DNA of 31,157 nucleotides from Schoenoplectus triqueter (Eukaryota > Streptophyta > Magnoliopsida > Poales > Cyperaceae), in NCBI GenBank assembly GCA_964058805.1, contig CAXKVV010000286.1, positions 1 to 31,157 on the forward strand. The letters run 5' to 3'. Below the pieces are notes generated by a model. That model did no database searches. It saw only the letters and a program-made list of their open reading frames with translations, and was not told where the DNA came from. The position numbers and the translations under genes were made by a program. This document shows positions 5,511-18,906 of this stretch, piece after piece (within the stretch, counting starts at the first letter, position 1; each line of letters starts with the position of its first letter).

Positions 5511-5872
5511 TATGTACAACACGGATCGATTCCATATTATGAATCAATTCATCATTTTCAAAGTTAAAATGGTTGATTTGAACCGTTAAAAATATTGTTC
5601 ATACGAATATCTAGCCGAGAATCAAATTTTAGAATTTTTTAGAATATTTTTACTTTTTTAGATAGATAGAAAATCGCTCTGATGGCTCATAAAATTAAAT
5701 CAAGTGATTTTCTAACTATCTAAAAAATAGTAAAAAAATTCAAACAAAAATATAAAATTTGATCTACAACTAGATATTCATATGAAAACTATTTTGAGTT
5801 GTTCGGATCGACTATTTTAACTTTGAAAATGATAAATTATTTCATAACACGAGATCGATCCATGCTATGTAT
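5511..5872. mobile_element. Fold-back MITE with arms of about 165 bp
   Basis: The left arm (about 5511-5675) and the right arm (about 5706-5872) are reverse complements over nearly their full length, with substitutions. Shared blocks include GGATCGAT, CATTTTCAAAGTTAAAAT, GAATATCTAG, ATCAAATTTTA, TTTTTTAGATAG and the inner GAAAATC/GATTTTC pair. The loop is only about 30 bp (5676-5705). The element has no coding sequence. Long TIRs suggest a Mutator-like or fold-back MITE, but no convincing 9-bp duplication was found. A transcript through it would fold into one long imperfect hairpin. Confidence 0.75.
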
Positions 5873-6571
5873 AGAAACTATCTCTCTATATATTCAAAAA
5901 GTAATTATATGTCATTATATTTAAAAAATATATAAATGTCAGGATAAAAGATATTTGCAAAGTTAAGTTTTGATGAGAGCTTTTATTAAATTCACTAAGA
6001 TGAGAATTTTTTATGATATATGAACACATTAAATATAAAAATATACGCTAAAAATTTAATAAAATATAAAATGATATTTTTTTTGATATGCGTTCGCATA
6101 AAATCGGATATAGATACCATCAGATGGTGTTGAATAATAAATGGATAATAGCTAAACAATCAAATATATATAAATAATAATTAAATCATATCCTTATCCA
6201 TAATAATTTTTCTGATACAGATATGAATCAGATAATTTTTATCATTTTTCTGATATGATCACAAATAAATAATTTAATATCTCGTTTACAGTCCTAATGA
6301 AAAATGAAGAACAGAGAAAACTTAATTAAAATCAGTTTTTTCATCCAGTCCTATGAAGTGAAAAGACTAGCTAATAGCTACTAAAGAATTAATTTCAAAC
6401 CTCACGTACAACAATTAAAATATGCATATTTATTTAGTAATCAATCCTATAAATCTCGCGTCATATCCGCTATTATTCTAAAGGAAAATAAGCTCTTATT
6501 ATTCTTTCATTTTCACCGTGTAGTTTATTTTATTTTAATAAAAAGTCTCAGATGAAACAATCAAGGACTCT
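5873..6571. other. AT-rich intergenic DNA, no gene seen
   Basis: AT-rich sequence with no recognisable gene, RNA or element end. The T/A-rich composition continues from the preceding MITE up to the CACTA target duplication. Confidence 0.4.
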
Positions 6572-7132: not shown

Positions 7133-8249
7133 TTAATTAGTTATTGGTAGGAAAATTGAGTCGTTTCAATATATTTTATGAACGTGATGATTTTTTTTAT
7201 GTGCAACTTGATCTTTATAATATATATAGTTGCTATGTTAGAGTTTGGCACTAAATATTGGAGTTGTTAATAATAAAAAAATACATATTTTCTTTTAATA
7301 GTATAAATATTATCGGTTAATTTATTTTTAAATTATATCAGACCTCATATAGTTTGCACATAATAATAAAAAATAAATTTGTAATTTTTGATGCGTGATA
7401 GTAAAGACCAACAATATTATATACCAATTTAGAAAATACATATTGTACATTTCCATACCGTACGTGACCAAGCAAGAAAGATAGTAGCGTGGTGGTAAAA
7501 AAATAGAACTTATTTATTTATTAAAATCAATAGAGATCAATAATGCATGTGTTAACTTTCTTCTAGTCGTTCATATCCAAAATAAATGTAAATTCATATT
7601 TTCTCAATGGACTGTCATGACACTTAAGAAAATACTAGTAAATATACCTGCTCTTACGTGCGGATTGTGTAAGTTTCTTTTGGATGCTCTCAGCATCTAT
7701 TAGTAATTTTTAGAAATTAAACGAAGGATAGACTATAAGATATCTATAAATTTTGTACGCGCGGACTCTCAAAATTGGGACAATATTTAACAAAAAGAAG
7801 ATAAATCAACAATTAGAAGAAAAATATCTTATCTGAGATAATAATTTGCAGCACCAGGTATTCGCGACATAAAAGAATTATACATGATCTATTATATACA
7901 AACTAACTTTGGTTGTCCTATCTTGCTACAACTGTCCCATAGTATTTTTTTCAATTATTGCAATCCCAAATGTGTCATGATAATGTTATAATTTAACATA
8001 CATGCTGAAACTGTCCCCGCATCACAAAATTTGTATCAAACAATTGTAGCAGATTAGAAATACTGGCAAAATCAACTCTTAACTCATTCTTACAAATCAT
8101 ATGAAATTGTTACATAATCTATGCCAACTGAAAAAGCGAATTACGTAATTCTAGAATTGTTTACCCTTGAGAGATTTCAAGGATGAATAAATGAATAAAT
8201 AAGATAAATTGATGATTAATGATAAATCATAAGAAAAGGGGAGAAGAGA
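7133..8249. other. AT-rich intergenic DNA, no gene seen
   Basis: No supportable gene. The segment is AT-rich until about 8190. The sequence then turns GA-rich (8236-8262) and less AT-biased, marking the left edge of the repeat-rich block. Confidence 0.4.
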
Positions 8250-8351
8250 GAGAGAGGTGGAAAGATGGCCCACTGATCAGGAGAGGTCGCTGCCTAACCC
8301 CGGAACAAATCCATTAGTCCCACAATGGAATGCTGGGCATGAAGTGAAGAG

Positions 8352-8359
8352 TATAAATA
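8352..8359 (+). promoter_or_regulatory. TATA box (TATAAATA)
   Basis: A canonical plant TATA box, TATAAATA, followed by CCCCGC and a pyrimidine-rich segment. A start site about 30 bp downstream would fall next to the 13-bp hairpin at 8384-8440. No coding ORF follows, so any transcript would be non-coding. Confidence 0.45.
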
Positions 8360-8383
8360 CCCCGCTATTCTCTATCCACTCAG

Positions 8384-8440
8384 CATGAGTGACACCCAAG
8401 AAGATCGAGGGAGAGAGGAGACCTCTTGGGTGTCACCATG
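8384..8440 (+). other. Perfect 13-bp stem-loop at predicted transcript 5' end
   Basis: GTGACACCCAAGA (8389-8401) pairs perfectly with TCTTGGGTGTCAC (8424-8436). After one bulged A, CATG (8384-8387) pairs with CATG (8437-8440). The 22-nt loop is purine-rich. The stem sits just downstream of the TATA box at 8352. Confidence 0.6.
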
Positions 8441-8538
8441 TGATTATATTTTCTCTGACAAGTGGGACCCACCTGGCAGTCCCTTGCAGATGAATCTAAC
8501 AACGTAGCCTATCTGATGAGTCACCATGTGACCATTTT

Positions 8539-8567
8539 CACTGACAGGTGGACCCCACACCTCAGTG
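8539..8567 (+). other. Stem-loop CACTGA(CA)GGTG / CACCTCAGTG
   Basis: CACTGACAGGTG (8539-8550) pairs with CACCTCAGTG (8558-8567): ten base pairs with a two-base bulge around the loop GACCCCA. It overlaps one of several copies of the TGACA(A/G)GTGG...CCCAC motif that recur at about 8456, 8540, 9467 and 9649. Confidence 0.45.
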
Positions 8568-8736
8568 ACCTATTGAAGGAGTCAGAATTGAACCCTAAAA
8601 ATCTGCCTTTGGAGCTAACCCTAGAAAGGAGCTGAAGCAGTATAATCCCTATGCTACATGAAATGATGTCAATGCCAAGCTAGCATTTTGATGCAACTAG
8701 TTATAAGAAATTCCAAATGTGATTTTGCTTTCAAGG

Positions 8737-8953
8737 CTGACCTGGTGCCAAAGCTGCGAGCAACCACCTAACCATGCTTTGATTTGTGTCAATTACTGAT
8801 AAGTAGTCAGTTCTTTGACCAAGTCACCCTCATGTTAAGGGATTGAAAGTCAATTTCACAAGACTGATCAGGTGCCAAAGCTGGGAGCAACCACCTGATC
8901 AAGTCTAGATTTGTATTAATTGCTGATAAATAGTCAGCATTTGATCAAATCAA
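8737..8953. repeat. Two diverged direct repeats, period 127 bp
   Basis: The segments from about 8737-8826 and 8864-8953 align. They share GGTGCCAAAGCTG, GAGCAACCACCT, GATTTGT, AATT(A/G)CTGATAA and TAGTCAG. The offset measured at GGTGCCA is 127 bp. No frame is open across the pair, so this is non-coding duplication. Confidence 0.85.
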
Positions 8954-9280
8954 GCCCTAATGAATATCAATATAAGTCTAATTGGTATTTAGTTAGGGTG
9001 GTTTCTGCAAGAGGGAGATAATTGGCAGAGACATTGAGCTACAATTGAGATCAGGGATTAATTCATAAGGAATAATAGGGTTTTATGAATAAAAGAATTT
9101 TTAATTCAGAGAGGCAAGGGCAAAAATGGAATTAAAAATTACAGGGATGATCATCATGAATTTAGGGATTTTTGGTGAAATTTTCATGATTTTTGGATAA
9201 GTGGAGCTATTAAAATAAATTCAGGGAAGATAAAGGCAGAATAAATGGATTAATCAAAGGCTGAGATTCAATCAAGGGTT

Positions 9281-9330
9281 CATCTGGGTGCAATCTGGGG
9301 ACAGAGACTCATCTGGGTGCAAACTGGGGA
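9281..9330. repeat. Short tandem repeat, period 29 bp
   Basis: CATCTGGGTGCAATCTGGGG and CATCTGGGTGCAAACTGGGG occur 29 bp apart with one difference. Confidence 0.9.
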
Positions 9331-9371
9331 TCCTAAGCACACCTATACCGAATCAGAGAAGAGAGAGGGTG

Positions 9372-9722
9372 TGACACGTGTCAGCATTTCATTGGGTCAC
9401 CTCATGCCACGTGTCAGCACCCCATTGGTCCACCTCAGCCATGTGGGTCCCACACCCCTACAGATCTGACAAGTGGGCCCCACCTATGCCACATGGCAGT
9501 CAGCCATTGGTCCACATCAGCAGCCACTTCATCCAGCAGCTAGACAAATGGCAGCATGCTATAGGGCCACCTCAACAGTCCATTGCCATGTGACCTTCCC
9601 TTATTGGTCCACCTCACCACTGTGAATCCCACTATAATATAAGGCGACTGACAAGTGGGCCCCACTGGATGCCACATGGCATGCACTCACTGGTGCCATG
9701 TCACCATACAGCGTGTATAAAG
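9372..9722 (+). promoter_or_regulatory. G-box / CCAAT / TATA cluster (promoter-like)
   Basis: Two G-box cores CACGTG occur at 9375-9380 and 9408-9413; the first lies inside the perfect palindrome TGACACGTGTCA. Four ATTGG (inverted CCAAT) boxes are at 9391, 9424, 9506 and 9603. TATAATATAAGG lies at 9633 and TATAAAG at 9716. The motifs alternate with repeats of GTCCACCTCAGC and GTGGG(C/T)CCCAC. In plants, G-boxes bind bZIP and bHLH factors. The density suggests an LTR-type promoter, but no coding region follows. Confidence 0.45.
9467..9502 (+). other. Three-way-junction-like inverted repeat
   Basis: TGAC (9467) pairs with GTCA (9499) and encloses two small hairpins, GTGG-GCC-CCAC (9473-9483) and TGCCA-CA-TGGCA (9487-9498). 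Both inner hairpins recur near 9655-9685. The stems are short and could be chance, but the recurrence supports a repeated motif. Confidence 0.35.
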
Positions 9723-10360
9723 AGTGACAGATGGCTCTTTATGGTTGGTACAGGGCAACACACAAGGTGCCACATGGCACTATATCACAAAGCCACATCA
9801 TACACAGATCATTAACACTAAGGGTTTGTTTAATAAGCAATCAACCAATCAGGAAGAGCCACCTCAGCATATTAGCATTAATCAGTTGCTAACCTCACAG
9901 GCTTAAACACTTAAACCTTACAGGTGGGACCCAGTAGTCAGATGGATAAGGCTAGGATCACAAGCTAAAGATGTAAACCAGGTCCATTCATCCTGTTTAT
10001 CCAATACAGCGCAATTCAATTTAAAACAAGAGATAAAAGGAAGGTGAACCTGGTGCATGCTCCCCCAGTCGCTGATCTACTCCCCTCTGGCGCTTTGGTG
10101 CACGTGCGCCTGAGCCGTCCAGCCCAGCCGAACACTCTCCCCGCTCTCCCTCTTTCTTCTTCTTCTCCTCGCGCGCGATCATCATCTTCTTCCCATGGCG
10201 CCTCACCATTTTAGAGACTTAAAAGCAATCGATAAACATCAATGCATCAGTCAGAAGGGTAAGAACAAAGGGATGACAGTGAAGGAAGGGTTGAATAGTG
10301 AGATTACCACAGTTCGAGTTGAGACAGTAATGGAGCGATTCTAAAGAGATGTAATTGAAG

Positions 10361-10567
10361 GCTTCAAGCACCAAATTGAACACAGAGACAACTTCCTTGA
10401 GCTAAGGCGACGCCGATTGAGAGGTGATTGTGAAGCAATTGAGTTAGAGGAAGGTGCAAATGTGAAGAGTCGCCGGAGATAGTAATAAAGAGGCAAGCTT
10501 GATAGGCGCTTCAAGCACCAAATTGAACGATCAGAGAGCTTATTCAGATCAAGGCGACGCCAATTAG
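10361..10567. repeat. Direct repeat of about 60 bp, period 147 bp
   Basis: Copies at about 10361-10421 and 10508-10567 share GCTTCAAGCACCAAATTGAA, CAGAGA and AAGGCGACGCC(G/A)ATT. Neither copy is coding. The intervening DNA is unique within the window. Confidence 0.85.
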
Positions 10568-10944
10568 CATGGAAAGAGTGAGTGATTGAGTGGAAGAAGT
10601 GAATTGCGCCAAGAGAAGAAGTGAGGCAGAAACCGGCTTTTGAAATAAATGAAATTTAGTGAAATTGAGAGAGAGAAAATGCTAACCATGGTGTAGAGGC
10701 ATTTAAATATGGATTATTGATAAGAGGGCTTGCTTATCAATCAAAGTAGCTGTTGAATTGGAGTCAAACGAGTTGCGGCACAGTCAAACCATAACAGAAA
10801 GCAGTTGGGCGGTTTTCACGACAAACACAAACCCATCTGGGCCGTTGATTGAGTTAAAATGAAGGGTGAGGATGTATCCAAGGTGGCAATCCGAGTGGAA
10901 AGCAGCCAACCAATCGCAATTGGGTTAATTAGCCGGTTCTAGCC

Positions 10945-11105
10945 TATATAAACTGAAATTCAGCAACAGTAGAGGAGAGATTGATTAGCAGAGCTATTAG
11001 GATCAAGAACATACACCCACATACACTTTTCTAGTCGACAAGAGAGAGAGAGTGAATAGCTAGAAGAGAGATTATTCAATTTCTTGTTTCTGTGAAGAAT
11101 AAAAG
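10945..11105 (+). promoter_or_regulatory. TATA box, leader and possible 5' splice site
   Basis: TATATAAA at 10945-10952 is followed by an AC- and GA-rich leader (about 10975-11100) typical of plant LTR R/U5 or 5'UTR sequence. A good splice donor follows, AAAAG|GTAATT at 11105/11106. No ORF of note follows in the presumed intron or after it. The arrangement suggests a spliced non-coding or retroelement leader transcript; this is inference. Confidence 0.4.
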
Positions 11106-11310
11106 GTAATTGGTAATATTCATTGGTTTATAGATGTTTTCCTTGTATTCCTTCTCTGAAATTGATTTTAAAACATTCAATTCATAGTTATTGAATAGTC
11201 AATTGAATATATTTCTTCACTCTTGCTCTCTTCCTTTGGAAATTTTGCTTCTTTCATTTGTTTCTCCACTGTTCCTCTTTGAAAGGCATCAATTAGCAAT
11301 AATCAGCCGC

Positions 11311-11366
11311 ATTCAGTGAGCCACTGGCCCAATCACAAAGTGATTGGTGAGCCTTTAGGCCTGAAT
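11311..11366 (+). other. Cloverleaf-like stem-loop unit, copy A
   Basis: The outer stem is ATTCAG (11311-11316) with CTGAAT (11361-11366). Inside are three hairpins in order: GCC-ACT-GGC, CCAATCAC-AAA-GTGATTGG (11329-11347) and GCC-TTTA-GGC. The linkers are TGA on both sides. Copy B at 11627-11677 keeps the side hairpins and linkers but replaces the outer and central stem sequences with other complementary sequences. Confidence 0.7.
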
Positions 11367-11626
11367 CGGTTATAAAGTCAAGAATTTGCGATTTAGTTAT
11401 TGATATACTGATTTTCATTGAAAATTTTCATTTTTAGTATTCATTAGCTTATGATCACATAAAACTGAGGTATACAAGTTCATATCTTTGTAATTTTCTT
11501 GATTGAATTGTTCTTGATTGATTAGAATTAACCCTAGCGTTGTAATTTCATTATAATGCACTGATTCTGTTAGAACCAGTATATCGCCGAGTTCTCAAAT
11601 CCAAATTTGTTCAAATTAACACTCAA

Positions 11627-11677
11627 CTCAGTGAGCCACTGGCCCTAGCTACGCCTAGGTGCGCCTTTAGGCCTGAG
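11627..11677 (+). other. Cloverleaf-like stem-loop unit, copy B
   Basis: The outer stem is CTCAG with CTGAG. Side hairpins GCC-ACT-GGC and GCC-TTTA-GGC are identical to copy A. The central hairpin CCTAG-CTACGC-CTAGG (11644-11659) is unlike copy A in sequence but again self-complementary. The T-A to C-G change in the outer stem is a compensatory pair change relative to copy A. It is not a tRNA: there are no A/B boxes or CCA-compatible acceptor stem. Confidence 0.7.
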
Positions 11678-11724
11678 GGGTGTTGATTCGATGAGAAAAG
11701 GGCACGAATTGAGCTAATTAAGCT

Positions 11725-12311
11725 TGGTACCGACCGGTACCATACGCTACCGAGTGATGAATTGCCTCAGCACCGCCAAGAATGAAAGGGAAGCCTTCCG
11801 CCTAACCCATACAGCATCTTCATGTCGAGACGATGCTCATTGACTTCGTAATTGTCAATAACTTTGATCAATTTTGCCGAATTTAACGAATGAAGCATCT
11901 CGGTACCGGTTCTAACTGACACACTACTCGGTACCATCATGTGGCATCTCTCACCGTATGGATTCTCGATCAAGAACCATAAAAGAACTCTCCAAAGCAA
12001 GACGATGCAGAAGCACCGACCTGATCATGGAAGAGATGCTCCGGCCGCCGGAAGCGCCATTCGGCACGAATCCTGACGTAGGAACAAATCGGAAAAGATG
12101 AAAGAACCGTTGGCACGAACCTTGAAGCATGCGCTGATCTTGAAGATAATCAACACACGGGATCTGTTAAGAAGTCCGATTATTAAATCAAGAAAGGATC
12201 TGGGCCGTAGATCCATTAAACACGTATCTCAAGTGAATCTGGCGGCCCAAATGAAGAAGAAGTTATATAAAAGATGCGCACCAATCTCGGCATAGATCTG
12301 GCGGCCCAGAT
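11725..12311 (+). other. Non-coding segment with GGTACC inverted repeats and a TATA box
   Basis: GGTACC-GACC-GGTACC near 11726 is followed by CGGTA...TACCG, and two further GGTACC words lie at 11902 and 11931. TATATAAAAG lies at 12264-12273. GGATCT/AGATCC (12196-12214) and ATCTGG-CGGC-CCAGAT (12296-12311) are small perfect hairpins. AATCTGGCGGCCCA at 12235 is a half-copy of the latter. Open frames on either strand here have no recognisable motif and are not called as genes. Confidence 0.35.
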
Positions 12312-12329
12312 TAAGCCCATTAATTAAAT

Positions 12330-13541
12330 AATAACAGAATAGTAATAACATAGAGTAAATAAATGTTTTAAAAATGTTCCTGAACTCCAAATTGACTCAA
12401 ATTTGTTTCTAAAATTTTCTTATTTTTCATACTATTTTTCTATTCAATAATATTTCAGTTTTAGAAATATAATCATGATAAGACAATTTAAAAGCAAAAT
12501 ACATTACATATATTGATATAGTTGACCTAGCTTTGACTTGTCATTTTAAATACTATAAAAATTCTAAAAATACAAATAAAAATCATAAATAATAACTAGA
12601 TATATTTTAGTGATTTTTCAAGTGATTTTCCATGAAATAATAATGATGATTGTAATATGCTATAATAAAAGTGAAATTAGCTATATTCTTTGATAAATAA
12701 ATAAAAAAATAAAAATAATAATAGATATTATATTGATATTTCCTGTAAAAAAAAGAATAATGAAAATAAATAGCACAGAATATATAAAATATACTACCAT
12801 GGTAATAAATAGTAAAATACATTTTCCTTTATAATAAAGAATGATAATATAGTTTTAGAATATGAATTGTATTTCTTTTGTTATTTCTATACAATAAAAA
12901 TACTTTTGATGAATAAAATGTAATAAAATAATAGTTGTAATAAAAACATAATAAATTTCATCTCTTATGACTATTTTCAACTAATAATAAAAATCCTATG
13001 CTTTTCTATAAATAATAAATAGAAATAATAAAAATAGATATAATGAATAGTATAATAAATAGGATAGAATATTAGTAATGGTTTCTTTTCTTAGCTATTA
13101 TAGATATTAAAAATAAAAAAAATATAATAAAAATAATAATAATAATAGTAAAATAGTATAGCTAACCATCTTTTAATTTTGTAAATGATTCTTACATAAT
13201 GAATAGTATTTCAATATAATAGAATATAATAATAAAATTCTATTACTTTAGCTATTATAAACATTTTAAAAATACAAATAAAAAGATCATATCCATTTTA
13301 TTTTCTATTATTTTTGTAAGTGATTTTCTACAAAATAAATAGAGTTTAGAAATAATAAAAAAATATATATATAAAATTTTACTACTTTAGCTATTATAAA
13401 AATCCCAAAAATATAAATGAAATTCTAAATTAATAGCTACCCCTTTTCCTATTATTTTTGTAAATAATTTTCTACATAGATAAATAGAGTTTAAGAAATA
13501 AAAATAATAATAATAAAAATAATAATAGTAATATAATAATT

Positions 13542-13578
<37 letters not shown>

Positions 13579-13615
13579 GCATCTTTATAATAAAAATAAT
13601 AATGGAAGATATTAT
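12330..13615. repeat. Extremely AT-rich minisatellite with TAA/ATA tracts
   Basis: The segment is nearly all A and T. A degenerate unit is recognisable from GCTATTATAAA followed by AAAAATACAAAT, then CTATTATTTTTGTAA and ATTTTCTACA, then AAATAGAGTTTA. Copies align at 13251 and 13390 (139 bp apart), with older ones near 13094 and 12550. A (TAA)n tract runs at about 13505-13573. Nothing here is coding; the open frames are low-complexity artefacts. Confidence 0.75.
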
Positions 13616-13720
13616 ATAATAGACTTTGTGCATTTTAAGAAATGAATAAATATGCTCACATAAGGAGTGTAGAGCCACATATGAATATTTGCACACATGA
13701 TATAACATTTAGAATGGTTA

Positions 13721-14201
13721 GTCAAGACGAGAACATCTTGACAGAGGACAAATAAGGTTGCAATGACAATAAGAGAAGGTGCGTTGAGACAAGAATATCT
13801 TGACGTGAGAATATTAAGGCCTTGATAGCAACATGAGAAGATACGTCGAGACAAGAACATCTCGACACTTGATGAAGAATAATAGGATACGTTGAGACAA
13901 GAACATCTTGGCGTAGAATGATTAAAGCTTCGATAGCAATATGAAGAGATATGTCGAGACAGGAACATCTTGACGCTTAACGAAGAATAATCAGAGCTAC
14001 GATACTAACATGAAGATATACATCGACTCTGAAGAGGAAGAACATTATGATGTCCTAGATAGGTGACATCTTAATGACTCGCTACCATGAGCAAGTAACT
14101 CATGATTGAATACGCTCACACAAGGGGTGTAGGGCAACATAACAGTTTTGCACAAGTAATGCAACACGTAGAATGATTAGTCGAGACAAGAGCATCTTGA
14201 C
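13721..14201 (+). other. Six stem-loops with GTC(A/G)AGA stems and CAAGAACA-type loops
   Basis: Copies lie at 13721-13742, 13782-13805, 13844-13866, 13890-13913, 13953-13974 and 14180-14201. Each has a 7-8 bp stem and an 8-nt loop close to CAAGAACA. The stem pairs as GTCAAGA/TCTTGAC in copy 1 and GTCGAGA/TCTCGAC in copy 3, a two-sided change. The other copies pair with G-U wobbles. Spacing is mostly 46-62 bp. No ORF is supported; the minus-strand open frame through this array is a by-product of the repeat. Confidence 0.7.
14044..14104 (+). other. Tandem hairpins ATTATGATGTC/GACATCTTAAT and CATGAG/CTCATG
   Basis: Eleven-base arms at 14044-14054 and 14065-14075, with one mismatch, surround a 10-nt loop. 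They are followed by CATGAG (14086-14091) with CTCATG (14099-14104). The same ordered pair occurs at 14271-14333. Confidence 0.7.
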
Positions 14202-14270
14202 GCTCGCTGAAGAATGACCAAGGCTACGACATCAGCATGGAGAGATATGTCGACTTTGAAGAAGAAGAAC

Positions 14271-14333
14271 ATTAAGATGTCCGAGCGAAGTGACATCTTA
14301 ATGACTCGGTGTCATGAACAAGTAATTCATGAC
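14271..14333 (+). other. Tandem hairpins ATTAAGATGTC/GACATCTTAAT and GTCATGAA/TTCATGAC
   Basis: A perfect 11-bp stem (14271-14281 with 14292-14302) has a 10-nt loop. A perfect 8-bp stem follows (14311-14318 with 14326-14333). Relative to 14044-14104 the first stem has become perfect. The second stem has a different sequence (GAA/TTC instead of GAG/CTC) yet still pairs. Confidence 0.75.
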
Positions 14334-14348
14334 CATTTGAGCTGGCAA

Positions 14349-14945
14349 GACTGAACTCGTCCGTCGATGAGTTTGTCTCCTGGCTCATTTCCCGAGACTG
14401 TGAGATTGAATCGGTCTGTAGGTAGATTCATCCACAAAACAGTGAATGTGAACCGTTCTGTAGGTAGGTTCCTTCACTTACACATGCCTCAATGTTGAAC
14501 TGGCCCAGCGCTTCAGGTTTAATATTGTGTGCAATTGTGTTTCCTAGGTTTATGAATCGGCTTAGTGCTTCGAATTCATGATCTAGAAGATCGGTGAGAA
14601 GAAACACGTGGGCCATATCCACCCTTCTCCTGATTTACCAACCTCAAGATCAACCGGCTCAGTGCTTCGAGTTGTATTTTGTGTGATTGGTTGTTGACTA
14701 GTTAAGATTGAACCGGTCTGTTTGTAGGTTTATCTTCTAGATCAACGGAGGTCGAGTCGGTCTGTATGTAGACTCACCTCAAGCCCCCCATATGAAGAGA
14801 TTAACCTGGTCTGTTGGTAAGGTTATATCTCGAGGTGGCATGGACTGAACCGATCTGTTTGTAGGTTCGTCCCCCATAGGACAAAACCGATCTGTTTGTA
14901 GGTTTGTCTTCCATAGATTGAACCGATCTGTTTGTAGGTTCATCT
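14349..14945 (+). other. Array of twelve stem-loops with covarying stems
   Basis: Stem-loops lie at 14349-14377, 14404-14432, 14442-14477, 14491-14526, 14551-14580, 14649-14675, 14704-14736, 14748-14780, 14798-14830, 14842-14872, 14880-14908 and 14915-14945. Units 1-3 and 7-12 share a loop near G(A/G)TCTGTTTGTA: exact in the last three, 12 nt in most, 10 nt and diverged in unit 1, 14 nt in unit 9. Most have a single bulged base on the 5' arm. Units 4-6 have a second loop type, near CGGCTCAGTGCTTCGA. Apical stems differ but pair: GAATC/GATTC, GAACC/GGTTC, GAGTC/GACTC, TAACC/GGTTA, AAACC/GGTTT. Basal stems differ too: GTGAA/TTCAC, AAGA/TCTT, GAGGT/ACCTC, GGAC/GTCC. No coding frame explains the pattern. 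The strand is assigned only from neighbouring TATA boxes. Confidence 0.8.
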
Positions 14946-14961
14946 TCCGTAGATCCCTTTT

Positions 14962-14967
14962 TATAAA
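14962..14967 (+). promoter_or_regulatory. Possible TATA box (TATAAA)
   Basis: TTTTTATAAAC lies directly after the hairpin array and is followed by a CT-rich stretch around 15007. It could start transcription to the right of the array. The evidence is the motif alone. Confidence 0.25.
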
Positions 14968-14999
14968 CTTAGACGACCACTTGACCATCTTTTAACTAT

Positions 15000-15268
15000 A
15001 CTATTTGCTTCTCTCTTTCAAAGATCCAGAGGTGCCTCGAGGTTCGTAGCCCAGGGTAATTAACGGTGGGGGCTTGCGCCCACCGGAATCTACAAGAACT
15101 CACAATCACTAAAAACCCCCTGAATGTGCATCCAAATATCTCTAAACGGCAGAATCGGCCGACACCTAGCAGATGCACGCTCGGGAGGGATCTCCGTGTC
15201 CTTCTTCCGCAGAACCCATCGTCCGGCGGCGGTGCGGCGGCGCGCGAAAAAGGGTCGCACAAGAATTA
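15000..15268. other. GC-rich segment with a 7-bp hairpin, right edge of block
   Basis: The segment is much richer in GC than its surroundings, with CGGCGGCGG-like runs at 15222-15245. CGGTGGG (15064-15070) pairs with CCCACCG (15079-15085). On the minus strand ATGGGTTCTGCGGAAGAAGG (from about 15218 downward) looks like a start in good context, but its frame stops after 17 codons. Other open frames are arginine-rich readings of the GC-rich DNA. It may be a captured exon or LTR U5; undecided. Confidence 0.3.
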
Positions 15269-17000: not shown

Positions 17001-17811
17001 CCATCTCTACACTACAGGAAAATAGATATTTTGCGGCGATAAAAGTCATCACTATACACAAAAATATCGTCACCTTTGACTTTCAGTGGTGATTTTCAAT
17101 CGCCACAAGGCCGTCCCCAAAAATTCCGTCGCTAAAAATATAACGTGACAGTTTCAGTCGCCACAAGTTTCAATGACGATATTTTATCGTCATTGTAAGG
17201 TCACAAAAAGATGGCAATATTTAGTGTCACTGTAAATATAAGCTATAGTGGTGATTTATTTTTTATGACAATAATTATTGCCACTAATTATCAAAATAAT
17301 TGTGGCTAGAAAAATCGTCATTTTTTAATCAAATTGTTGCAATTATTTGTCGTCACCTTGGTTTTCATCAGGGGCGATAATTTGTCACCATCTATCATGT
17401 TTTTTCATGACAATACTCATTGTCATCTTATTTCTCAACAATAGAGATAATTTTTTTGTTGTCATATTTTTATAGTTTACAGTGACGATTTCTCTTGCCA
17501 TTAATCTTATCATATTCGATATAATATATATTATATTGGTGGCTAAATTCCACTATTTAATGCTTCTAATATTATTTCTTGACCTTTTATATTATTTTTT
17601 GAAATATGCATTTCAACTATATTTATAAAAATATGAAAAAAAAATAGAATTGGAATTATTTTTCACTGTAACATTAGTTATAAATAATATAAATAATATA
17701 ACATAACTAAAATCAAATAAGCTAAAATTGATGGCAATATAGACATCATCATAATCAATAGCTAAACAAACATATACTAAGAATAATATAATATTTTCTA
17801 ATAACAACAAC

Positions 17812-18030
17812 AAGCTATCATAATTCAGAACTAATTAACATCAAACATCAAACTACCATAATCCAAAACTAATTAACATCAAACAACAAGCTACCATAAT
17901 ACAGAACTAATTAACATCAAACAACAAGCTACCATAATCCAGAGCTAATTAACATCAAACAACAAGCTACCATAATCCAGAGCTAATTAACATGAAAAAA
18001 TAAGCTACCATAATCCATAACTAAACACAC
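17812..18030. repeat. Tandem repeat, exact 38-bp period, about six copies
   Basis: Units begin at 17812, 17850, 17888, 17926, 17964 and 18002. The consensus has AAGCTACCATAATCCAGA then GCTAATTAACATCAAACAAC. The period stays at 38 bp with few substitutions, so the expansion is fairly recent. It lies just downstream of the predicted stop of the CACTA gene. Confidence 0.95.
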
Positions 18031-18477: not shown

Positions 18478-18906
18478 CCCAACGAATTGCATAGCCGCTT
18501 GAAGATTTTCTTCAAACTCTTTCATAATGTTCTCTTTCATATTTTGCTGCTCAATTCTATGACGTGTTTCCCTTTCTTCACTCTCTTTAAGCATGTGTGT
18601 TTCTCGTTCTTCACTCTCTTTACGTATGAGTTCTTCCCGTTCTTCACTCTCTTTGCGCAGACGTGCCTCTCTTGCTTCAGCTTCTTCCTTAGTCTGTTGT
18701 AACTCGGCTCGTAGATCTTGAATTTGTTGCTCATATGCCACTTGGGAAGCCCTATTTTCTGAATTCTTGCGAGATAGTGGCTTAGGCCCACTCCCGAGGC
18801 CTCGTAAGTATCCAGAACGTGAGCCAAATACCTCAGTCAGTTGTTCTTCAACTGACATGGGAACTTCTTGGTCTTGTTGCGATTCTGAAATCTCTTGAAG
18901 TTGCGG
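18478..18906 (-). pseudogene. CACTA plant transposase (Ptta/En/Spm, Transposase_24-like) C-terminal exon
   Basis: The exon runs from an acceptor AAATGCAG| at 18907 to a donor GTTGGG|GTATGT at 18477, 143 codons without a stop. Counting from the in-frame ATG at 18912, residues 29-45 read FGSRSGYLRGLGSGPKP, the signature just before the coiled coil in plant Ptta/En/Spm transposases. Residues from about 58 onward form a charged coiled coil. Its core is an 11-residue repeat around KESEERE, encoded by three 33-bp DNA repeats (18571-18669). A last exon GRRA-stop may follow at 18128-18114 after TGTACAG|. Upstream exons for the rest of the protein are absent. The open frame continues through the acceptor to 18999, but that part is intron-like. 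Family assignment is by motif recall, not by search. Confidence 0.7.

Follow-up and report, generated by a model that had tools for sequence, protein, structure and literature searches.

How a row of similar but non-identical hairpins is maintained in a plant genome, and to what it belongs, was the question raised by a stretch of 31,157 nucleotides from Schoenoplectus triqueter (contig CAXKVV010000286.1, positions 1 to 31,157 of the forward strand), referred to below as the window. An earlier note, made from the sequence alone, had described twelve successive stem-loops within about 600 bp (14349-14945) and had ascribed them to selection on RNA structure, with templated mutation as the alternative.

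Anatomy of the hairpin array

Thirteen hairpins (U1 to U13), all on the + strand, were located at 14338-14947. The stem-loops were thus present where they had been described, but their number had to be raised from twelve. A common loop was likewise found, although its strict form (type 1, G-N-TCTGT-N-N-GTA) occurs in eight units rather than nine, at 14413, 14455, 14715, 14759, 14808, 14852, 14889 and 14925. These units and their apical stems are U2 (14399-14436; GAATC/GATTC), U3 (14441-14478; GAACC/GGTTC), U8 (14698-14741; GAACC/GGTTT, with one G.U), U9 (14748-14780; GAGTC/GACTC), U10 (14796-14831; TAACCT/AGGTTA), U11 (14841-14873; GAACC/GGTTC), U12 (14878-14909; AAACC/GGTTT) and U13 (14914-14947; GAACC/GGTTC), the basal pair of the last being T-A or C-G among copies and T.G in two of them. 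Most type-1 stems are about 9-14 bp long. A single bulged base on the 5' arm, which had been attributed to most units, is present in six of these eight (U2, U8, U9, U11, U12 and U13); in U10 the bulge is on the 3' arm, and in U3 an internal loop takes its place. A variant of U12 found in seven copies, first in L033, is able to pair without the bulge. The second loop type (GGC-N-N-AG-Y-GCTTC) is carried by three units, as had been reported, namely U4 (14490-14528), U5 (14544-14586), a hairpin that is kept in distant subfamilies, and U7 (14638-14690). U1 (14338-14388), the least constrained unit, and U6 (14588-14636) each have a loop of their own, that of U6 being long.

The apical 5-bp stems of the eight type-1 units differ in sequence yet still pair, as the earlier note had stated, with 39 Watson-Crick pairs and one G.U among 40. 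When 3' arms were exchanged between units, the mean fell to 28.5 Watson-Crick pairs of 40, and only 48 of 40320 permutations reached 39. The summed folding energy of 16-nt arms was -87.6 kcal/mol, compared with -61.8 +/- 6.0 for exchanged arms (0/5000). The same test was applied to eleven other arrays, with 0 to 24 of 5000 on the sense strand (weakest in L048) and 0 to 30 of 5000 on the antisense strand. Windows of 120 nt over the array proper (14341-14940) were not unusually stable (z from -1.8 to +0.7), and a purely thermodynamic argument was rejected on this ground. The signal of the array is matched arms and fixed loops, not raw energy. With the counts corrected, the stem-loop array noted from the sequence is confirmed.

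Elsewhere in the window the type-1 loop pattern occurs three times on the + strand and not at all on the - strand, and at these places 1-3 of the five flanking bases pair. Outside the LTR array, no type-1 loop with a paired 5-bp flank was found in L009, L010, L011, L018 or L023. Six class-B hairpins (13721-14201, + strand; starts at 13721, 13783, 13845, 13891, 13953 and 14180), read in the window alone, have a stem like GTCGAGA/TCTCGAC and a near-constant loop of approximately CAAGAACA; they extend the array upstream, partly within a 108-bp tandem repeat. Two further hairpins, CATTAAGATGTC/GACATCTTAATG and GTCATGAA/TTCATGAC, lie at 14270-14333 (+ strand).

The LTR and its element

The array sits in the U3 of a 7.1-kb LTR, at the 3' end of U3, which bears out the earlier guess of a retroelement. 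This solo LTR (8158-15261, + strand, 7104 bp, TGTTTACC...GGTCGCACA), whose borders were taken from aligned copies, is flanked by 5-bp target site duplications (TSD) AGAAT at 8153-8157 and 15262-15266, abutting its start and its end, respectively. The right border at 15261 (TCGCACA), which lies 316 bases beyond the end of the interval in the earlier note (14945), is common to 20 of 20 aligned copies. It is followed by GGATCTGGCACGCCC(G/A)GTGGGAC, a primer-binding site (PBS), in 13 of these copies and by other DNA in seven. The left end is the same as the LTR start bounded on contig C914. That copy has both LTRs bounded (6.9 kb each, starting with TGTTTACCC), a TSD ATCAC and a PBS after the 5' LTR, and the complete element is 28.5 kb long as calculated from coordinates. 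Two LTRs with TG..CA ends, a 5-bp TSD and a PBS are the features of an LTR retrotransposon, and all are present in that copy. The two LTRs are 99.84% identical over 5473 bases and 99.95% over 1863 bases, and the insertion is therefore recent.

The coding region was assigned on the copy in contig C1662, in which Pfam domains follow the order gag (PF03732), protease, reverse transcriptase (RT), RNase H, second RNase H, integrase zinc domain and integrase core, as in Ty3/gypsy elements, with the protease under its curated cut-off (20.6 of 28.2 bits). In Ty1/copia elements, to which the Sireviruses belong, integrase precedes RT, whereas here it follows RT and RNase H. The second RNase H (RVT_3 at 161-273) lies between RT_RNaseH (19-91) and Integrase_H2C2 (379-433), and an antisense open reading frame (ORF) beside the 3' LTR encodes a plant mobile domain (PF10536, E = 9.6e-27). 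An extra RNase H between RNase H and integrase has been described as a mark of the Ogre and Retand subclades of Tat, and an ORF with a plant mobile domain was reported in 57% of Ogre elements (PMC6317226). Because of these two features the element is called Ogre/Tat type here, that is, a giant Ogre/Tat-type Ty3/gypsy element as assigned by domain content and order. An antisense ORF with PF10536 lies at 8219-10000 (+) of L009, its open frame starting at the 3' LTR border.

Downstream of the array, a promoter-like stretch (14960-15008, + strand) contains TTTATAAA at 14960 and CTATACTATTT near 14996; it is putative, as is its transcription start. Since TTTATAAA is not conserved in subfamilies, the promoter assignment is tentative, and CTATACTATTT is an alternative.

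The array is highly repeated in the 82-Mb assembly, whose light-harvesting genes point to a plant. Among 40 candidates scored out of 671, the window included, 39 other copies are each about 98% identical to it over the full 597 bases; the array was present in 19 of 20 retrieved stretches, twice in one of them. A second sample of 60 LTR ends was collected by the PBS and not by array similarity. The PBS pattern matched 278 places (140 + 138, tandem duplicates included), and the ends were drawn from 100 places in listing order, which is not a random draw. The pattern read backwards matched no place, and neither did a pattern for other LTR-end bases before the same PBS. Among the 60 ends, 49 have 7-10 type-1 loops by pattern, five (L050, L062, L067, L071 and L080) have no type-1 but at least one type-2 loop, and in six (L049, L058, L078, L079, L086 and L089) the pattern detects neither loop type. 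The array is therefore not universal. Two of the six, L049 and L058, were inspected and are A/T-rich at the array position. The type-1 bearing relatives range widely in identity to the window over about 1 kb: 87-90% in L034, L035, L047, L054, L065 and L088, 83% in L082, 78-80% in L039, L040, L048, L081 and L083, and 69% in L084. Subfamilies vary in unit number, and some have 11-base loops such as GTTCTGTAGTA. In a distant subfamily (L062 and L067), repeated modules of about 130-145 bp with several hairpins each replace the type-1 array. In L013, L014, L019, L020, L024 and L028 the last 78 LTR bases are repeated about 145 bases past the LTR end; PBS places in several contigs are 136-147 bases apart, and the LTR end occurs three times in L028.

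Covariation, strand and loop conservation

For the comparison between copies, 59 distinct arrays were aligned, namely that of the window and 58 from 80 other sequences. Eight identical sequences were left out, as were 14 with a non-matching 5' part (11 without type-1 loops, and L048, L064 and L084), so that the most diverged copies are outside this test. The structure was taken from the window with G.U included, and U12 was omitted from the pair counts owing to its split alignment. A standard pair is formed in 98.6% of 9946 cells, against 35-45% when the structure was slid by one to three columns; this figure includes the pair 252/300, formed in two of the 59 arrays, which was dropped from the column-pattern null and from the strand test on the window-folded structure. 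Compared with shuffles, both two-sided cells (32 vs 9.6, 0/500) and two-sided pairs (6 vs 3.4, 4/500) were in excess; further pair types in the 59 arrays were not above the shuffles (206/500). A null that keeps relatedness was obtained by moving whole column patterns (169 pairs). Against it, 32 two-sided cells were observed vs 3.4 (0/2000), six two-sided pairs vs 1.7 (6/2000), and a paired percentage of 99.2 vs 98.4 (1/2000). Without U1, an exclusion that was chosen after the data had been seen, here and in the strand test, and for which both versions are given, the values were 28 vs 1.7 for cells (0/2000) and 4 vs 0.9 for pairs (24/2000). Covariation thus exceeds what relatedness among the copies yields. 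The arm-exchange and column-pattern tests both speak against chance, or tandem duplication without selection, and this explanation was rejected.

Related hairpins are also found in distant subfamilies, with stems that differ but remain complementary. U5-type hairpins from 17 sequences (type-1 arrays together with L050, L071 and L080) have 98.6% of cells paired and four two-sided pairs (column null, 39/2000 for pairs and 1/2000 for cells). The inner stems of U6-type hairpins, with outer arms alike, include GAGAAG/CTTCTC, AAAGAC/GTCTTT, AAGAT/ATCTT, AAACC/GGTTT, AAATG/CATTT and AAGGTG/CACCTT. With examples hand-picked as distinct, arm exchange gave 0/20000 for nine U5-type hairpins and 6/20000 for eight U6-type hairpins. 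A further hairpin in R/U5 (15064-15085, + strand) has also changed its stem two-sidedly in subfamilies: among 81 sequences it reads GGTGGG/CCCACC in 66, AATGGG/CCCATT in nine, AGTGAG/CTCACT in two and AGTGGG/CCCACT in one, with a one-sided change in three. Stems are therefore preserved in paralogous copies as well as in distant subfamilies. Neither of the outcomes that the earlier note had named as refuting it, a lack of covariation above a null or a loss of stems in related copies, was observed, and its reading, selection on RNA structure, is supported.

The strand on which the hairpins fold was deduced from the kind of mismatch that is tolerated, since a hairpin of one strand tolerates G.U and not A.C, and the reverse holds for the other strand. 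The test was restricted to pairs whose column majority is Watson-Crick. The copies fell into 51 clusters, and a variant was called shared when two or more clusters had it and private when it was confined to one. Shared variants comprised 17 G.U vs 4 A.C and private ones 16 vs 20 (Fisher one-sided p = 0.0069, two-sided 0.012). All four shared A.C variants lie in U1, and without this unit the counts were 11 vs 0 shared and 14 vs 18 private (one-sided p = 0.0008). The matching changes in unpaired columns were balanced (46 vs 49 shared, 25 vs 33 private), so that mutation bias does not explain the G.U excess. An earlier structure folded from the sense strand of the window had given 42 vs 26 pair states (p = 0.034), with 18 vs 4 shared and 13 vs 21 private (p = 0.0014); a sense-folded structure itself favours G.U, and the G.U-free column-majority structure was used instead. 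Among 91 distinct type-1 arm pairs, one of which (L064) is not a real unit, there were 22 G.T vs 5 A.C in the apical five positions and 47 vs 31 in whole arms, these being non-independent counts. All 13 units had a lower minimum energy on the sense strand. In the global fold, by contrast, the antisense strand had the stronger z-score (-6.3 vs -4.9), and U6-type hairpins and a small hairpin at 14307-14335 fold better antisense. In our view private variants mostly represent post-insertion decay, whereas shared ones have been through transposition. The asymmetry among shared variants then indicates selection on a folded sense single strand in transmitted copies. Overall, there is good support for the RNA-structure reading, and the sense strand is the one indicated.

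This asymmetry also bears on functions at the DNA level. The units could be dyad-symmetric transcription-factor sites in a promoter-proximal U3, forming a transcriptional cis-region like that of Sireviruses, whose motifs are described as clustering upstream of the TATA box (PMC2829016). The array indeed lies just upstream of the TATA-like stretch, and when identity to 19 other copies was taken in 100-base bins, the window scored 97-99% over the array vs 82-97% over 12300-14299, these copies having been picked by array similarity. However, a site in duplex DNA would conserve its arms, whereas here the arms change in matched pairs and the loops are fixed, and an excess of G.U over A.C is unexpected for double-stranded DNA or cruciforms, in which both strands are equal. 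A cruciform or duplex-DNA function is thus disfavoured, and we regard the cis-region as an unlikely explanation.

The loops were compared in 413 type-1 loops from seven units of the 59 arrays, U12 not included. Positions 1, 3, 4, 5, 6, 10, 11 and 12 are one base in 98.8-99.8% of loops and position 7 in 94.9%, while positions 2, 8 and 9 reach only 46.7-56.4%; TCTG is present in 409 of 413. As many of the sampled copies are young and alike, the contrast between loop positions is more telling than the percentages themselves. That fixed positions stand next to free ones suggests that the bases are specifically recognised.

The alternative of templated mutation holds that template switching, in reverse transcription or replication, copies one arm onto the other, so that stems match with no selection. 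It would give two-sided changes, and units have been gained and lost in subfamilies, so that exchange between units is plausible. It predicts, however, perfect arms, whereas bulges are kept in most units; it predicts strand symmetry, whereas shared variants are G.U-biased and private ones are not; and it predicts no pattern of fixed and free loop positions. Since shared variants tolerate G.U in a strand-asymmetric way, it is disfavoured as the whole explanation, and we consider it very unlikely.

Possible role and known systems

We consider it probable that the array is a cis-acting sense-RNA structure of the Ogre/Tat-type element, which would serve as a multivalent protein-binding platform with Gag as the favoured partner. 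By the standard LTR life cycle, a position at the 3' end of U3 would put the array close to the 3' terminus of the genomic RNA, just upstream of R and the poly(A) tail. Each type-1 unit would display the loop G-N-UCUG-U-N-N-GUA, with its fixed and free bases, on a mostly bulged stem whose sequence matters little as long as it is paired. Most likely, one RNA-binding protein would bind the roughly eight copies of a single loop (in the 49 samples with an array, 7-10 by pattern) together with the second loop class. Recognition of this multivalent kind would resemble that of phage coat-protein operator arrays or of the nucleocapsid sites of retroviruses. The favoured candidate is the element's own Gag, acting through zinc-knuckle-like motifs, which would pick out or concentrate the element RNA when particles assemble; the alternative candidate is a host factor of 3'-end formation or export.

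The gag-pol frame contains two zinc-knuckle-like CX2HX4HX4C motifs: FCPYHRIIGHSIEDC follows the gag domain, and FCPYHRILGHTIEEC is located between protease and RT. The second lies behind the protease and outside Gag proper, which speaks against the Gag reading. Retroviral packaging signals are usually located in the 5' leader, whereas the array is in the U3 of the LTR. In Moloney murine leukaemia virus the nucleocapsid zinc knuckle binds UCUG in the packaging signal, and the leader exposes several UCUG (PMC7599994). The likeness lies in several exposed UCUG among stem-loops and in a zinc-knuckle partner, established there and a candidate here; the difference is that the UCUG studied there is a linker in the 5' leader, whereas here UCUG is found in hairpin loops of U3. 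Recognition of UCUG by a zinc knuckle in the present element is accordingly a lead, by analogy across very distant proteins.

The position before R also suits another role, in 3'-end formation or first-strand transfer, in which the hairpins would distinguish the poly(A) site of the 3' LTR from that of the 5' LTR or give the acceptor template its shape. Only a short distance separates the end of the array from the probable start of R, in the standard life cycle the RNA carries U3 at its 3' end alone, and a second covarying hairpin lies in R/U5. UGUA is an upstream poly(A) motif, and it is missing from some loops such as GGUCUGUUGGUA; in addition, the six LTR ends without either loop type speak against such a role, which seems quite unlikely to us. 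The hairpins might also be a source of small RNAs through Dicer-like processing, for host silencing or as a decoy. Clusters of Sirevirus palindromes are reported to draw small RNAs in maize (PMC10760457, citing a 2016 paper). On the other side, most type-1 stems, at about 9-14 bp, are on the short side for Dicer-like enzymes, and kept pairing with G.U tolerance and a base-specific loop are unexpected in a silencing target. We judge this source highly improbable.

Within the preferred reading of a protein-binding platform, a more specific version is possible, though doubtful. The array would be an Ogre-type 3'-end RNA recognition code, in which about eight G-N-UCUG-U-N-N-GUA hairpins are read by the element's own Gag and sister subfamilies use other hairpin sets (type-2 loops or longer three-hairpin modules) or none. 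If true, this code would serve in plants as a signal for packaging or assembly, evolving together with its protein and separating subfamilies that reside in the same genome. To our knowledge, cis-acting RNA elements of plant LTR retrotransposons have hardly been characterised. The array offers a concrete, mutable target for the question of how giant retrotransposons mark their own RNA. Furthermore, a highly repeated family with recent insertions provides many natural variants, so that selection on RNA structure can be tested by shared versus private variants, in the same way as selection on protein.

The earlier note had known of no plant element with this architecture, but a partial and nearest precedent is found in the palindromic motif clusters of Sireviruses, plant Ty1/copia elements with 8-32 palindromic units each, those in the LTR being clustered upstream of the TATA box (PMC2829016). 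Both systems have repeated palindromic units in the LTR upstream of a TATA box or TATA-like stretch. Sirevirus units, however, are described as having conserved stem sequences, nearly all with a CGG-CCG core, and short or absent loops (PMC2829016), whereas here no sequence-constant CGG-CCG palindrome is seen: stems vary between units and covary, loops are fixed, most type-1 units are bulged, and the element is Ty3/gypsy. The array thus sets RNA-structure hairpins apart from the sequence-constant palindromes of Sirevirus LTRs. With the Ogre lineage of the Tat clade the element shares the order RNase H, second archaeal-type RNase H and integrase, and the plant mobile domain ORF; the passages of the published description used here (PMC6317226) make no mention of a conserved U3 hairpin array. 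Among the open-access papers listed in a literature search, none reports a covarying stem-loop array in a plant LTR in its title or in the displayed opening of its abstract.

In architecture, the type-1 units resemble phage coat-protein operator hairpins and the iron-responsive element, which have a short upper stem, a single bulge on the 5' arm and fixed loop bases; the loop sequences differ. Rfam models, that of the iron-responsive element included, gave no match at the gathering score in the window, and the best sub-threshold match over 13650-15261 was an enterobacterial sRNA (E = 0.2).

Several other features of the window were recorded. Pfam gave no match for five ORFs of the window. A 33-bp tandem repeat of about three copies (18559-18666) lies inside a minus-strand ORF that encodes a charged repeat and matches no Pfam family, and a 38-bp tandem repeat of about six copies is found at 17806-18024. 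An inverted repeat at 5511-5873, with 141-nt arms that are 74% complementary and 81 nt between them, may be a small foldback element. Near both contig ends, 555-972 and 29947-30393 form direct repeats in several pieces, 82-95% identical and 29.4 kb apart.
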